Source: a virus. Taken from it: a stretch of DNA of 24,257 nt. Of the stretch, positions 21,086 through 23,328 are shown piece by piece. The notes below the pieces were generated by a model that was given only the letters and a program-made list of their open reading frames with translations, made no database searches and was not told where the DNA came from. The DNA lies in the IMG/VR virus record IMGVR_UViG_3300046370_000446, positions 1-24,257 of that record; one strand, given 5' to 3'. Positions within the stretch are counted from its first letter, which is position 1; every line of letters starts with the position of its first letter. The position numbers were made by a program, and so were the translations under genes.

Positions 21086-21274
21086 ATGAAAATTAACAAC
21101 GGAGCCATTTATCATAGTAAATCCAACAACAAAGCCGTTCGCGTTGTGCGAGCAAATCAAAGCGAATCTATCGCCTACATTAAACACCATAAACAAGACA
21201 TTGAAAGCGAAGTCTTCTTCACAGATCTTTTACCTGCTACAAAAGAACAAGTTAAAAAATACTTAGGCAAATAA
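21086..21274 (+). CDS. Hypothetical small early protein, possible SH3-like barrel
   Basis: 62 residues. The strand pattern GAIYHSKSNNKAVRVVRANQ, then SIAYIKHHKQDIESEVFFTD, fits a small beta barrel of the SH3/Tudor type often found in phage proteins of unknown function. It ends with a helix (ATKEQVKKYLGK). The assignment is by pattern only. Leaderless start at P7. Its stop overlaps the start of an 18-residue hydrophobic peptide (TAATG). Confidence 0.72.
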   Translation: MKINNGAIYHSKSNNKAVRVVRANQSESIAYIKHHKQDIESEVFFTDLLPATKEQVKKYLGK

Positions 21275-21330
21275 TGATCTTTTACATAATTATCTCTGTC
21301 GTAATTGGTTTAATCTGCGTAAATAAATAA
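21274..21330 (+). CDS. 18-residue hydrophobic peptide, coupled by TAATG
   Basis: The peptide is MIFYIIISVVIGLICVNK. About 15 consecutive residues are hydrophobic, enough for a short membrane segment with the Lys end inside. The ATG shares its A with the TAA stop of the 62-residue gene, so ribosomes can pass straight on. It is followed after 7 nt by the next ATG (21338). There is no promoter or Shine-Dalgarno sequence of its own. Two similar peptides occur on the minus strand at 22989-23063 and 23239-23328, which raises confidence that it is real. Function unknown. Confidence 0.55.
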   Translation: MIFYIIISVVIGLICVNK

Positions 21331-21337
21331 AATAATC

Positions 21338-21649
21338 ATGAGAAAAGTAACACAACAAATTAAAAAAGCTTTCGAGCAAGGCAAATCCTTAAAAGTCGGC
21401 AATACCGAAACGGACGGCAAAACCGTTTGGCTACATGGTAGCCCAATAGTTAAAAGAGATTTTGACGGGTTGATTCGTGCATCTTTAGCGGGTTATAATA
21501 CACAAGTAACAAGAGAAAGAGTTAACGGAATAACAGGATTATGCTTTCGCCAAAAGAAGGGTAAGGCTGTACTAAACGATCAGGAAATTGACCCATCCGA
21601 TTGGTTCGCAGTAGCATGGTACAAAAATCCAGAAATAGTCATTTTTTAA
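21338..21649 (+). CDS. Conserved phage hypothetical protein
   Basis: 103 residues. I recognise the overall pattern VTQQIKKAFEQGKSLKVGNT, then TVWLHGSPIVKR, AGYNTQVTRERVNGI and a closing DWFAVAWY, from a family of small phage and plasmid proteins of unknown function (N-terminal helix, GNT turn, LHGxxI strand, GxNTxxTRERxNG motif). The conserved TRERxNG stretch suggests nucleic acid or protein contact. No promoter box is seen in the 7 nt before it, so it is probably on the transcript of the two genes upstream, and no Shine-Dalgarno sequence is clear. Confidence 0.75.
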   Translation: MRKVTQQIKKAFEQGKSLKVGNTETDGKTVWLHGSPIVKRDFDGLIRASLAGYNTQVTRERVNGITGLCFRQKKGKAVLNDQEIDPSDWFAVAWYKNPEIVIF

Positions 21650-21659
21650 GCAAAATTTT

Positions 21660-21805
21660 CATAAGTCTTTGAATACCAAGGGTTTATGAAAACGCGCCTT
21701 TTCATAAATCGTTGAACATCAACAACTTGGGTAAAAAATGGTCGATTTTCGTAACTTGTTGGTATTCAGAGGCTTCCGTAAGTCGTTGATTATTAGGTAT
21801 TTATC
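21660..21805 (+). repeat. Palindromic repeat array D (four 29-nt units)
   Basis: Units are at 21660-21688, 21703-21731, 21750-21778 and 21777-21805. The first pair is joined by AAAACGCGCCTTTT, one base from the array B and C spacer. The third and fourth overlap by 2 nt. The joint of the first pair forms its own hairpin: TTTATGAAA, 8-nt loop, TTTCATAAA. The array follows the stop of the 103-residue gene by 10 nt. Confidence 0.85.
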
Positions 21806-21834
21806 TATTTGCTATTTATCTATTTGCTATTTAT
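21798..21834 (+). repeat. 15-bp tandem repeat (about 2.5 copies)
   Basis: TATTTATCTATTTGC is present twice exactly (21798-21812, 21813-21827) followed by a partial third (TATTTAT). It starts inside the last palindromic unit and ends just before promoter P8. Confidence 0.85.
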
Positions 21835-21845
21835 AAAAAAAATAT

Positions 21846-21874
21846 TTGACTTTATTTTATTTATTGTTTAGTTT
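21846..21874 (+). promoter_or_regulatory. Early leaderless promoter P8
   Basis: TTGACT (21846-21851), 17 nt, TAGTTT (21869-21874), 6 nt, ATG. It has no TAATTGC element. Confidence 0.82.
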
Positions 21875-21880
21875 ATATGT

Positions 21881-22075
21881 ATGACTAAAACAGAAATGCT
21901 TCAAGAAATTAAAACTCTTCACGCCACTCTCAAAGACGAGAGCCAAACTCTCAGCTCTGCTGATAGGGTTAGCATTGTTAGCCAGATAGGCGAACTGCAA
22001 GACAGGGTCAGTCTCCTTGACTTCCAGGAGCATGATGATATTGATTATGGATATCACGACCAATACGACCAATAA
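21881..22075 (+). CDS. Hypothetical small early protein
   Basis: 64 residues, not recognised. Two helices (TEMLQEIKTLHATLKDESQT and ADRVSIVSQIGELQDRVSLL) form a likely coiled-coil hairpin. The C-terminal tail is acidic and rich in Tyr, His and Asp (EHDDIDYGYHDQYDQ), so it may bind metal or be disordered. Leaderless start at P8. It is the last rightward gene, followed by array E. Confidence 0.74.
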   Translation: MTKTEMLQEIKTLHATLKDESQTLSSADRVSIVSQIGELQDRVSLLDFQEHDDIDYGYHDQYDQ

Positions 22076-22078
22076 AGT

Positions 22079-22149
22079 CGTAAGTTGTTGAGTATTAGTC
22101 GCTTATGGCGGCCTGCCCGCCGCAAGTCGTTGACTATTAGCGAGTTATG
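22079..22149 (+). repeat. Palindromic repeat array E (pair) between converging genes
   Basis: Units are at 22079-22107 and 22121-22149 with a 13-nt GC-rich spacer GCGGCCTGCCCGC. The array fills nearly all of the 77-bp space between the stops of the rightward and leftward blocks, where a two-way terminator would be expected. Confidence 0.85.
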
Positions 22150-22383: not shown

Positions 22384-22385
22384 AA

Positions 22386-22586
22386 TTAACCTTCTTTGAA
22401 TTCTTTTATAATTTGCTCCATTTGTTGCAGTACAGATTTTTTAGTTCCTTTAAATCCATACTCGGATTTTACGATTGCGTAGGCTGATGACCTTCCCCTC
22501 ATTCCAAGACACTCTAATTTAAGAGCAGATCTGAGAGTAAGGAATCGAGCCATATCAATTTGTTCGGGTGTGTTTAATATAATCAT
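22386..22586 (-). CDS. Conserved small phage/plasmid protein
   Basis: 66 residues. The pattern LNTPEQIDMARFLTLRSALK, then GMRGRSSAYAIVKSEYGFKG and QMEQIIKEF, matches a recurring small protein family in phages and plasmids without known function. It is mostly helical and basic in the middle. It is the first gene of its transcript, with the ATG exactly 6 nt after the -10 box of P9 and no Shine-Dalgarno sequence. Confidence 0.78.
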   Translation of the reverse strand: MIILNTPEQIDMARFLTLRSALKLECLGMRGRSSAYAIVKSEYGFKGTKKSVLQQMEQIIKEFKEG

Positions 22587-22592
22587 AATAGT

Positions 22593-22621
22593 AATATAGT
22601 TGAGTTGTTTTTGTTTGTCAA
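22593..22621 (-). promoter_or_regulatory. Early leaderless promoter P9
   Basis: TTGACA (22621-22616), 17 nt, TATATT (22598-22593), 6 nt, ATG. The TGA inside TTGACA is the stop codon of the upstream gene. Confidence 0.87.
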
Positions 22622-22863
22622 GCGATTTCTCTTACATCCTTCATTAATGCTTTTACTGCATCTAAATTTTGTTGCAATAAATTGAGTTGTTTTAATATTC
22701 CTTTATAGCCGACATAACCACCATTCATGTGACCTTGCCAAGTGTCGCCCACCTTCTTAAATGAAACATCCCAACCACAATGGTAATCGTATGCTTTTAG
22801 TATGCCGTTTGGCAAAAGTTCAAAATCTAGTTCTTTTCCTGTGTCTTTGTCTTTTAATGTCAT
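22618..22863 (-). CDS. Hypothetical early protein, start set by leaderless promoter
   Basis: 81 residues from the ATG at 22863 (MTLKDKDTGKELDFEL). An in-frame ATG at 22896 would add 11 residues but overlaps the -35 box; the promoter spacing (6 nt from the -10 box) selects 22863. The strand-rich first half (DFELLPNGILKAYDYHCGWD, then TWQGHMNGGYVGYKG) is followed by a helix (LKQLNLLQQNLDAVKALMKD). Not recognised. Confidence 0.74.
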   Translation of the reverse strand: MTLKDKDTGKELDFELLPNGILKAYDYHCGWDVSFKKVGDTWQGHMNGGYVGYKGILKQLNLLQQNLDAVKALMKDVREIA

Positions 22864-22869
22864 ACAAGT

Positions 22870-22898
22870 ACAATAAGCTAAAAAACTAATTAACACAA
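22870..22898 (-). promoter_or_regulatory. Early leaderless promoter P10
   Basis: TTGTGT (22898-22893), 17 nt, TATTGT (22875-22870), 6 nt, ATG. It has a less typical -35 box but exact spacing. Confidence 0.65.
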
Positions 22899-22926
22899 GA
22901 AAAAAGTGAAGTTTTTTTGTTTTTGT

Positions 22927-22997
22927 TGTAAGTGGTTGAATGTCAAATACTTATGGCGGGCGGGCCCGCCTAAGCCCTTGGTAGTCAACTACTTAGG
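22927..22997 (+). repeat. Palindromic repeat array F (pair)
   Basis: Units are at 22927-22955 and 22969-22997, with a 13-nt spacer GCGGGCGGGCCCG, the same length as in array E. The spacer with its flanks makes a strong GC hairpin (GGCGGG, CGGG, CCCGCC). The right unit overlaps the last codons of the 24-residue peptide on the minus strand. Confidence 0.85.
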
Positions 22998-23063
22998 TAA
23001 TAAATAGACGATAAGGCAAGGGCTAAGGATGGCAACGCCTATAATAATGACTATTTCAATCAT
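22989..23063 (-). CDS. 24-residue hydrophobic peptide, coupled by ATGA
   Basis: The product starts MIEIVIIIGVAILSPC and continues LIVYLLPK: one membrane segment over nearly its whole length, with a Lys at the end. The ATG overlaps the TGA stop of the 60-residue gene (ATGA), the same coupling used on both sides of the 29-residue peptide in this transcript. The last three codons and the stop lie inside palindromic unit 22969-22997. No own promoter or Shine-Dalgarno sequence. Function unknown. Confidence 0.58.
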   Translation of the reverse strand: MIEIVIIIGVAILSPCLIVYLLPK

Positions 23064-23242
23064 AATGGTCTAACCTTGATCCTTTTGTCATCCATGTGGT
23101 AAAAGTCTTTATCATTGTTTCGAGCAATGGTTTTCGCTAAACTCATGGCTTTAGCCTTAGTGTTAAGTTCGTCAATTAGTTTGCCGAAAGCAAATACTTG
23201 AAACCATTGAGTGAAATTAGGATTTTTTCTTATTGTTATCAT
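23060..23242 (-). CDS. Hypothetical small early protein
   Basis: 60 residues, not firmly recognised. The layout (ITIRKNPNFTQWFQVFAFGK, then ELNTKAKAMSLAKTIARNND and KDFYHMDDKRIKVRPL) is strand, helix, strand, like small DUF2188-type or host-factor-like domains. It is basic. Coupled on both sides by ATGA overlaps to hydrophobic peptides, so it is probably made in equal amounts with them. No Shine-Dalgarno sequence. Confidence 0.72.
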   Translation of the reverse strand: MITIRKNPNFTQWFQVFAFGKLIDELNTKAKAMSLAKTIARNNDKDFYHMDDKRIKVRPL

Positions 23243-23328
23243 TTTTTTAGTGTGTTAGTAATTATATCTTTGTGCATAATATAAAATACAATAACCCAAG
23301 GCAAGAATAAAAGTATGTCGTAACTCAT
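23239..23328 (-). CDS. 29-residue membrane peptide, coupled at both ends
   Basis: The product starts MSYDILLFLPWVIVFYIM, a single membrane segment, followed by a polar basic tail (HKDIITNTLKK), so the N-terminus likely faces out and the tail in, or the reverse. The ATG overlaps the TGA of the 99-residue gene, and the TGA overlaps the ATG of the 60-residue gene. A very good Shine-Dalgarno sequence (AGGAGGGA, 6-7 nt before ATG) lies in the end of the upstream gene. This is the best supported of the three tiny peptides. A membrane-targeting or lysis-timing role is possible but not shown. Confidence 0.66.
   Translation of the reverse strand: MSYDILLFLPWVIVFYIMHKDIITNTLKK

Follow-up and report, generated by a model that had tools for sequence, protein, structure and literature searches.

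Conserved tiny hydrophobic peptides coupled to small genes in an uncultivated clade of marine phages

Introduction

Several described systems contain membrane peptides of a few dozen residues. The filamentous phages (f1/M13, IKe) encode VII and IX, membrane proteins of about 32-33 residues. The bacterial Ibs and TisB peptides, of 18-29 residues, consist of a single hydrophobic helix, and KdpF and CydX are single-span proteins of about 29-37 residues, encoded in tight operon overlap, that exert their effect by binding to a large membrane protein. The genes for VII and IX of f1 are coupled at -4, and gene VII of IKe is coupled to gene V (PMC12548453). Micro-proteins are a known kind of phage product (review PMC11323111), and Fremin et al. 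(2022), as cited in that review, predicted families of small phage genes. Here we describe three tiny hydrophobic peptides, of 18, 24 and 29 residues, encoded in the 24,257-base virus record IMGVR_UViG_3300046370_000446, which belongs to an uncultivated marine virus of bacteria and is referred to below, as a whole, as the window.

The window shares with the filamentous phages the coupled, tiny, single-span open reading frame (ORF). However, VII and IX are proteins of the virion tip, whereas the present peptides occur in phages with a tailed-phage terminase and lie in a small-gene region of early type; no match to the minor coat proteins of Inoviridae was found in Pfam or PHROGs. T4-like phages also carry small predicted membrane proteins among their early small genes, some of which overlap their neighbours by annotation, but T4 47.1 has 46 residues and the T4 stretch that was scanned holds no hydrophobic coupled ORF of 14-35 residues. 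Ibs and TisB resemble the peptides in length and in their one hydrophobic helix; they are made from stand-alone, repressed mRNAs, whereas the peptides are coupled downstream cistrons for which an Rfam search and a promoter scan found no antisense RNA. Unlike KdpF and CydX, whose operon partners are membrane proteins, the one partner that could be modelled here is predicted to be soluble, and the partner changes between phages. The likeness to the families of Fremin et al., as far as the review presents them, is that of very short conserved phage genes overlooked in annotation. Thus, both micro-proteins of phages and tiny membrane proteins made by coupling have precedents, and it is the expression setting that is unusual here. 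Peptides of 16-29 residues fall below the usual cut-offs of gene finders, so that whole families can stay invisible.

Results and Discussion

Three coupled frames in the window

A sequence-only reading of the window had proposed three membrane-type peptides in frames that overlap the preceding gene by stop and start codons. Positions, strands, lengths and overlaps of all three agree with the DNA letter for letter, and their membrane-type character is borne out by hydrophobicity. The 18-residue peptide MIFYIIISVVIGLICVNK (21274-21330, plus strand) begins in a TAATG overlap with a gene for 62 residues. The 24-residue peptide MIEIVIIIGVAILSPCLIVYLLPK (22989-23063, minus strand) begins in an ATGA overlap with a gene for 60 residues. 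The 29-residue peptide MSYDILLFLPWVIVFYIMHKDIITNTLKK (23239-23328, minus strand) has ATGA overlaps at both ends, and its Shine-Dalgarno sequence AGGAGGG (23335-23341, minus strand) lies within the last codons of a gene for an acidic protein, six bases before the ATG; both features had been noted in that reading and are present in the sequence. Relatives were checked for stops or frameshifts in these frames, the condition named in that reading as speaking against it. The 29- and 18-residue frames are kept, while the 24-residue frame could be compared in one relative, where the DNA is identical. Conservation thus indicates that two of the three peptides, those of 29 and 18 residues, are genes missed by annotation.

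The 29-residue peptide and the PW family

The 29-residue peptide fits a family defined here, the PW micro-proteins, which have 24-29 residues, the motif [DE]ILLFxPWxxVF[YW]xMxxD and a charged tail. A degenerate DNA pattern for PWxxVF[YW]xMxxD matched 36 viral contigs, and a tiny ORF of this type was present in 36/36. Most members start at -4, -1, -8 or -11 from the upstream stop, and a few at +4. The closest relative of the window, IMGVR_UViG_3300017743_000027 (G001), encodes MSWDILLLLPWVFVFYIMHKDIITNTLKK, which is ATGA-coupled despite an altered end of the upstream gene. Between the window and G001 the 29-residue ORF is 91% identical in DNA, whereas its upstream neighbour reaches 60% and its downstream neighbour 79%. 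In ten pairs of family members, 63 of 116 changes are nonsynonymous where 89.4 are expected (P<5e-5), which indicates purifying selection.

The family was also reached through its neighbours. A profile of the acidic gene, independent of the PW pattern, found that gene family in 32 of the 47 records searched. Acidic genes of the window type number 18, most ending in or near MKGVY, and to 16 of them a tiny hydrophobic ORF is coupled, starting at -4, -8 or -11. Eleven of these ORFs are PW-type (one with SW) and five belong to a variant of 36-38 residues with PTFFAF[YF]LMF. At the other two loci (G005, G008) the acidic gene has no hydrophobic ORF directly behind it, and a PW peptide is encoded elsewhere on the contig. 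Relatives have AAAGGAG at the Shine-Dalgarno position, supplied by the codons for SDEMKGVY. The partner gene is constant within this sublineage only. Across the family, no fewer than five unrelated genes (the acidic gene and genes for 60, 78-82, 59 and 72 residues) precede a PW peptide; as judged from these contigs, the family moves between different upstream genes. The PW peptide is frequently the last ORF of its unit.

Conservation in the PW set is strongest at the angle of an alpha-helix. Since the pattern used to collect that set dictates key residues, the periodicity was calculated again for the 16 members reached via neighbour genes only. The helical peak is present in these too (P=0.019), and the W, V, F and mostly the M and D are retained. 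The conserved helix face presents W, V/F, M and D about every 3-4 residues. Conservation of one face only suggests that the peptide makes a specific intramembrane contact.

Neither the PW members nor the 24-residue peptide nor the other tiny peptides gave a credible match in the libraries against which each was scanned (Pfam, PHROGs, NCBIfam, PDB sequences). By comparison with these four collections PW is a new family, the published small-gene catalogue lying outside the comparison. It is a family with a clear motif, residue-level selection and a recognisable position at gene ends in dozens of marine phage contigs.

The 18-residue and 24-residue peptides

A hydrophobic ORF of 18-20 residues is present in 8/8 phages that have a 62-residue gene at least 74% identical to that of the window and a contig that continues beyond it. 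These ORFs lie between the 62-residue gene and the next gene, at -1, 0 or +2, and encode MIFYIIISVVIGLICVNK, MIFYIILSVVIGLICLNK, MISSIICSIIIAIICLNK (twice), MLIIYIVTSIIIGLAYTNK, MLIIYIITSIIIGLAYTNK, MLIAEFILGIVVTLILISKG and MLIAEFILGIVVTLILVSKG. The peptide was not seen behind more distant homologues of the 62-residue gene. Of 23 changes in four pairs, four alter the residue where 13.3 nonsynonymous changes would be expected (P=5e-5), which indicates purifying selection. A positive tail, NK or SKG, closes every member and suggests, by the positive-inside rule, a cytoplasmic C-terminus.

The 24-residue peptide is shared with G001 only, in which its 75 nucleotides are identical (75/75). The DNA downstream of the frame is 92-100% identical between the two phages as well, and the frame lies at the edge of this near-identical block; the identity therefore says nothing on selection and was rejected as evidence for a gene. 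Other homologues of the 60-residue gene have nothing in this position, apart from one with an unrelated coupled 19-residue peptide, MIFFPLFVGLILIILKPKN. The last two codons and the stop of the 24-residue frame fall in an intergenic palindromic repeat.

Chance and coding

Spacings of -4 and -1 are the commonest between neighbouring prokaryotic genes (PMC12548453), so the overlaps alone prove little. The earlier argument that three such cases speak against chance is therefore weak as far as the arrangement goes, and it is conservation that carries the case. Coupled tiny ORFs, counted as ATG-started frames of 14-35 residues starting at -4 to +3 from a stop, were sought at all gene ends of the window and of the fetched relatives (825 ends after removal of redundancy). 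Their number, 52 against 55.9 in shuffled DNA, is ordinary. Their hydrophobicity is not: 33 of the 52 are strongly hydrophobic against 2.1 expected and a maximum of 8 in 100 shuffles, an excess somewhat inflated by the gathering of loci partly around such peptides. A first, smaller set gave 19 hydrophobic coupled tiny ORFs against 0.69 expected. For the window alone, which had been chosen for follow-up because of its three tiny ORFs, all three coupled tiny ORFs are hydrophobic, with 0.1 expected from dinucleotide shuffles. T4 and HTVC008M, scanned over 45 kb each, gave no hydrophobic coupled ORF of 14-35 residues, and over 205 kb of the relative G010 there is one against 0.85 expected; the feature is therefore local to the small-gene region.

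That the frames are chance ORFs in AT-rich phage DNA is accordingly a reading to which we give almost no weight. It can draw on the 24-residue frame, whose conservation is uninformative, but it is opposed by the hydrophobic excess, by family-wide conservation and by the empty stretches of T4 and HTVC008M. For the 29- and 18-residue families a chance origin is refuted by shuffles, conservation and selection. The 24-residue frame is, in our judgement, probably real, as a member of the enriched class of hydrophobic coupled ORFs.

Transcription units and promoters

The peptides sit among small genes with early-type promoters. On the minus strand, a four-gene unit (23624-22989) comprises, in order, the gene for the 99-residue acidic protein (23325-23624), the 29-residue peptide, the gene for the 60-residue protein (23060-23242) and the 24-residue peptide, with an ATGA overlap at every junction. 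On the plus strand, the 18-residue frame is placed between the 62-residue gene (21086-21274) and a gene for 103 residues (21338-21649), the third cistron of its unit, which matches PHROG 12194 and 554. A pattern scan placed a promoter before the first gene of each unit: TTGACA-17-TACCTT (21049-21088, plus strand), with the -10 box ending 8 nucleotides before the ATG of the 62-residue gene, and TTGACA-17-TAAATT (23622-23660, minus strand), with the -10 box ending 7 nucleotides before the ATG of the acidic gene.

These promoters belong to a wider set. The signature TTGAC[AT]-N17-TAnnnT, with a -10 box ending 6-8 nucleotides before an ATG, precedes nine of the window's small genes, where 0.1 would be expected. 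Besides the two sites above, it occurs at 19728-19765, 19923-19960, 20239-20278, 20787-20824 and 21846-21883 on the plus strand and at 22584-22621 and 24173-24210 on the minus strand. Twenty relatives contain 114 sites, 93 of them at exactly 6 nucleotides. With the -10 box so near, transcription would begin on the ATG or right beside it, and the mRNAs should therefore be leaderless. The three tiny ORFs of the window are without a promoter of this signature and depend on the preceding gene. Tiny hydrophobic peptides elsewhere in the clade, such as MEIITMLIVFAIMICREVANYS, MELALLLSIAFVIGIFRGITDSVF and MLEIIIISLAIGVFSELKSQNESN, have promoters of their own, which independently marks such peptides as genes. 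Several clade peptides with a tail of the [KRS]E[LVFI] kind occur in both settings, with their own promoter in certain phages and coupled to a preceding gene in others. Where frames are coupled, the RNA was no better structured than shuffled sequence. The promoter set tied to start codons is worthy of separate study and, together with the coupling rule, the signature (-10 box mostly 6 nucleotides from the ATG) offers a length-independent way to annotate the micro-genes of this clade.

Further small peptides were observed in the same phages. Another tiny hydrophobic family, of 21-26 residues, has a tail such as KEL, REV, SEL or KEF and likewise is coupled in part of the phages and has a promoter in the rest (L011, L226, L227, L088, L056, L067). 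Conserved basic peptides of 24-38 residues, for example MIKIDTTQLTEREKILLAFVIAKKK and elsewhere MKVKVRKTIIMPKSRPMKRRNKVLPRKAKHKKIVQENS, are promoter-driven (L050, L056, L082, L088, L229, L236).

Possible role of the peptides

We favour, tentatively and at somewhat less than even confidence, the reading in which the peptides are made early, span the membrane once and bind a protein of the host inner membrane; the assignment of the target to the host, and its identity, are guesswork. Short early transcripts would carry the peptides as their second, third or fourth cistron. A host RNA polymerase of sigma-70 type would transcribe the first gene from its close promoter, giving a leaderless mRNA, and ribosomes ending the first gene would re-initiate at the overlapping ATG, helped for the 29-residue peptide by the strong Shine-Dalgarno sequence. 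Made early and in proportion through re-initiation, the peptide would insert into the host inner membrane, where its conserved helix face might bind an integral membrane protein of the host and alter its activity for the phage. A broader and more doubtful version is that the clade deploys modular micro-transmembrane peptides of 16-38 residues, freely swapped among leaderless early genes via stop/start coupling, as an inner-membrane layer of host takeover, with one conserved membrane protein of the host as the target of the PW family. Three points weigh against the favoured reading. The PW peptide is patchy, the strict pattern occurring in 6/48 records picked by their terminase, most of which are fragments that may stop short of the region. 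The 18-residue family keeps its hydrophobicity and little of its sequence, which would suit a loose membrane effect equally well. Finally, the early timing is suggested by promoter form alone. Should membrane proteins of the host prove to be what the peptides act on, these would be minimal modulators ready for use, and expressing them and pulling down their partners would be a simple way to find the targets.

The sequence-only reading had also raised tethering of the adjacent small protein, that is, each peptide would be an anchor or small subunit that binds the product of its coupled gene and holds it at the membrane. Coupled pairs frequently encode partners (Huber 2023, as listed among the references of PMC12548453), and 16/18 loci pair the acidic gene with a hydrophobic ORF. 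As a general role tethering nevertheless fails: the PW family stands behind at least five unrelated genes and therefore is not the dedicated anchor of one neighbour, other clade peptides are promoter-driven, and the 60-residue protein, modelled as a confident soluble fold, lacks a peptide behind it in other phages. We thus regard anchoring as unlikely; a better reading of the coupling is that it lets an early leaderless unit express a micro-gene at little cost. Superinfection exclusion, or a block of adsorption, exerted in the inner membrane soon after infection is likewise improbable; early-type promoters and membrane-type peptides would match the general pattern of exclusion proteins, but these are usually longer, and no homology to a known one was found in Pfam, PHROGs or NCBIfam.

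A toxin-like depolarisation of the host membrane would be in keeping with the length and hydrophobicity of the peptides, which resemble the type I toxins Ibs (18-19 residues) and TisB (29 residues). Yet the window contains no Rfam RNA at the gathering threshold, promoter-like sites are at chance level, so that none in excess suggests an antisense RNA, and the conserved PW/VFY/M/D residues suggest a specific contact; we consider such a toxin very unlikely. It is harder still to credit that the frames are cis-acting leaders or spacers, the translation of which sets that of the next gene while the peptide itself is inert. Several tiny frames do lie between two genes of one unit, but selection acts on residues and not on the frame only, conservation follows the helix face, and the PW peptide is frequently the last ORF of its unit. 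The peptides might also have a role in the virion. Phage lysis holins, for comparison, are encoded with an endolysin among late genes; the peptides lie among small genes whose promoters are of early type.

Neighbouring proteins

The 60-residue protein gave a confident soluble model (predicted local distance difference test, pLDDT, 91) of beta-beta-beta-alpha-beta-beta order, with no significant fold match in the PDB; one member of its family weakly matches DUF2188 (E=0.034). The AlphaFold model of the acidic 99-residue protein (pLDDT 61) is too poor to use, and the 62-residue gene has no family match in Pfam, PHROGs or NCBIfam. In relatives, the 103-residue gene can itself precede a coupled hydrophobic peptide of 16 residues. 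Tandem micro-genes were also observed, in which hydrophobic peptides of 16-19 residues (such as MIPIIIILSILLYIYTKD or MTCIILLSVALYLYSL) are coupled behind a PW peptide or the 103-residue gene (L007, L042, L044, L062, L069, L071, L074, L075, L076).

The phage clade and its genomes

The terminase of the window was matched in 34 of 38 records searched, at 61-93% identity; the phages that carry the peptides therefore form, on terminase similarity, one uncultivated marine clade, with contigs of up to 206 kb. Among 50,697 phage records, isolate phages gave no DNA match, no PW peptide and no match to the major capsid protein (MCP) or the 60-residue protein. On these records, isolate relatives of the window were rejected, its terminase being only ~25% identical to those of the best isolate phages. 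A cellular origin was rejected as well. Of two matches in cellular genome contigs, one is a chance frame within an unrelated gene, and the other lies on a contig resembling this phage clade within a metagenome-assembled genome called Rickettsiales.

The relative G010 (205 kb, sampled) codes for DNA polymerase III alpha, a Clp-like AAA protein and ribonucleotide reductase. ARAGORN predicted in it a transfer-messenger RNA (L096 11376-11738, plus strand) with the tag AKNIVSFEDFVHSEELALAA, which could point to the host, and a tRNA-Thr in L097. One ORF of about 5,520 codons extends over 19829-36391 of G010 (plus strand, L088-L089).

Intergenic palindromes of ~29 nucleotides, resembling CATAAGTCTTTGAATATCAAAGGTTTATG, occur at about 12 sites in the window between 19513 and 23005 (for example at 19517, 19608, 20603, 20646, 21660, 21703, 22079, 22121 and 22969) and in relatives too. 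They are frequently paired, frequently begin at the stop codon of a gene, and may represent a mobile element or a bidirectional terminator.

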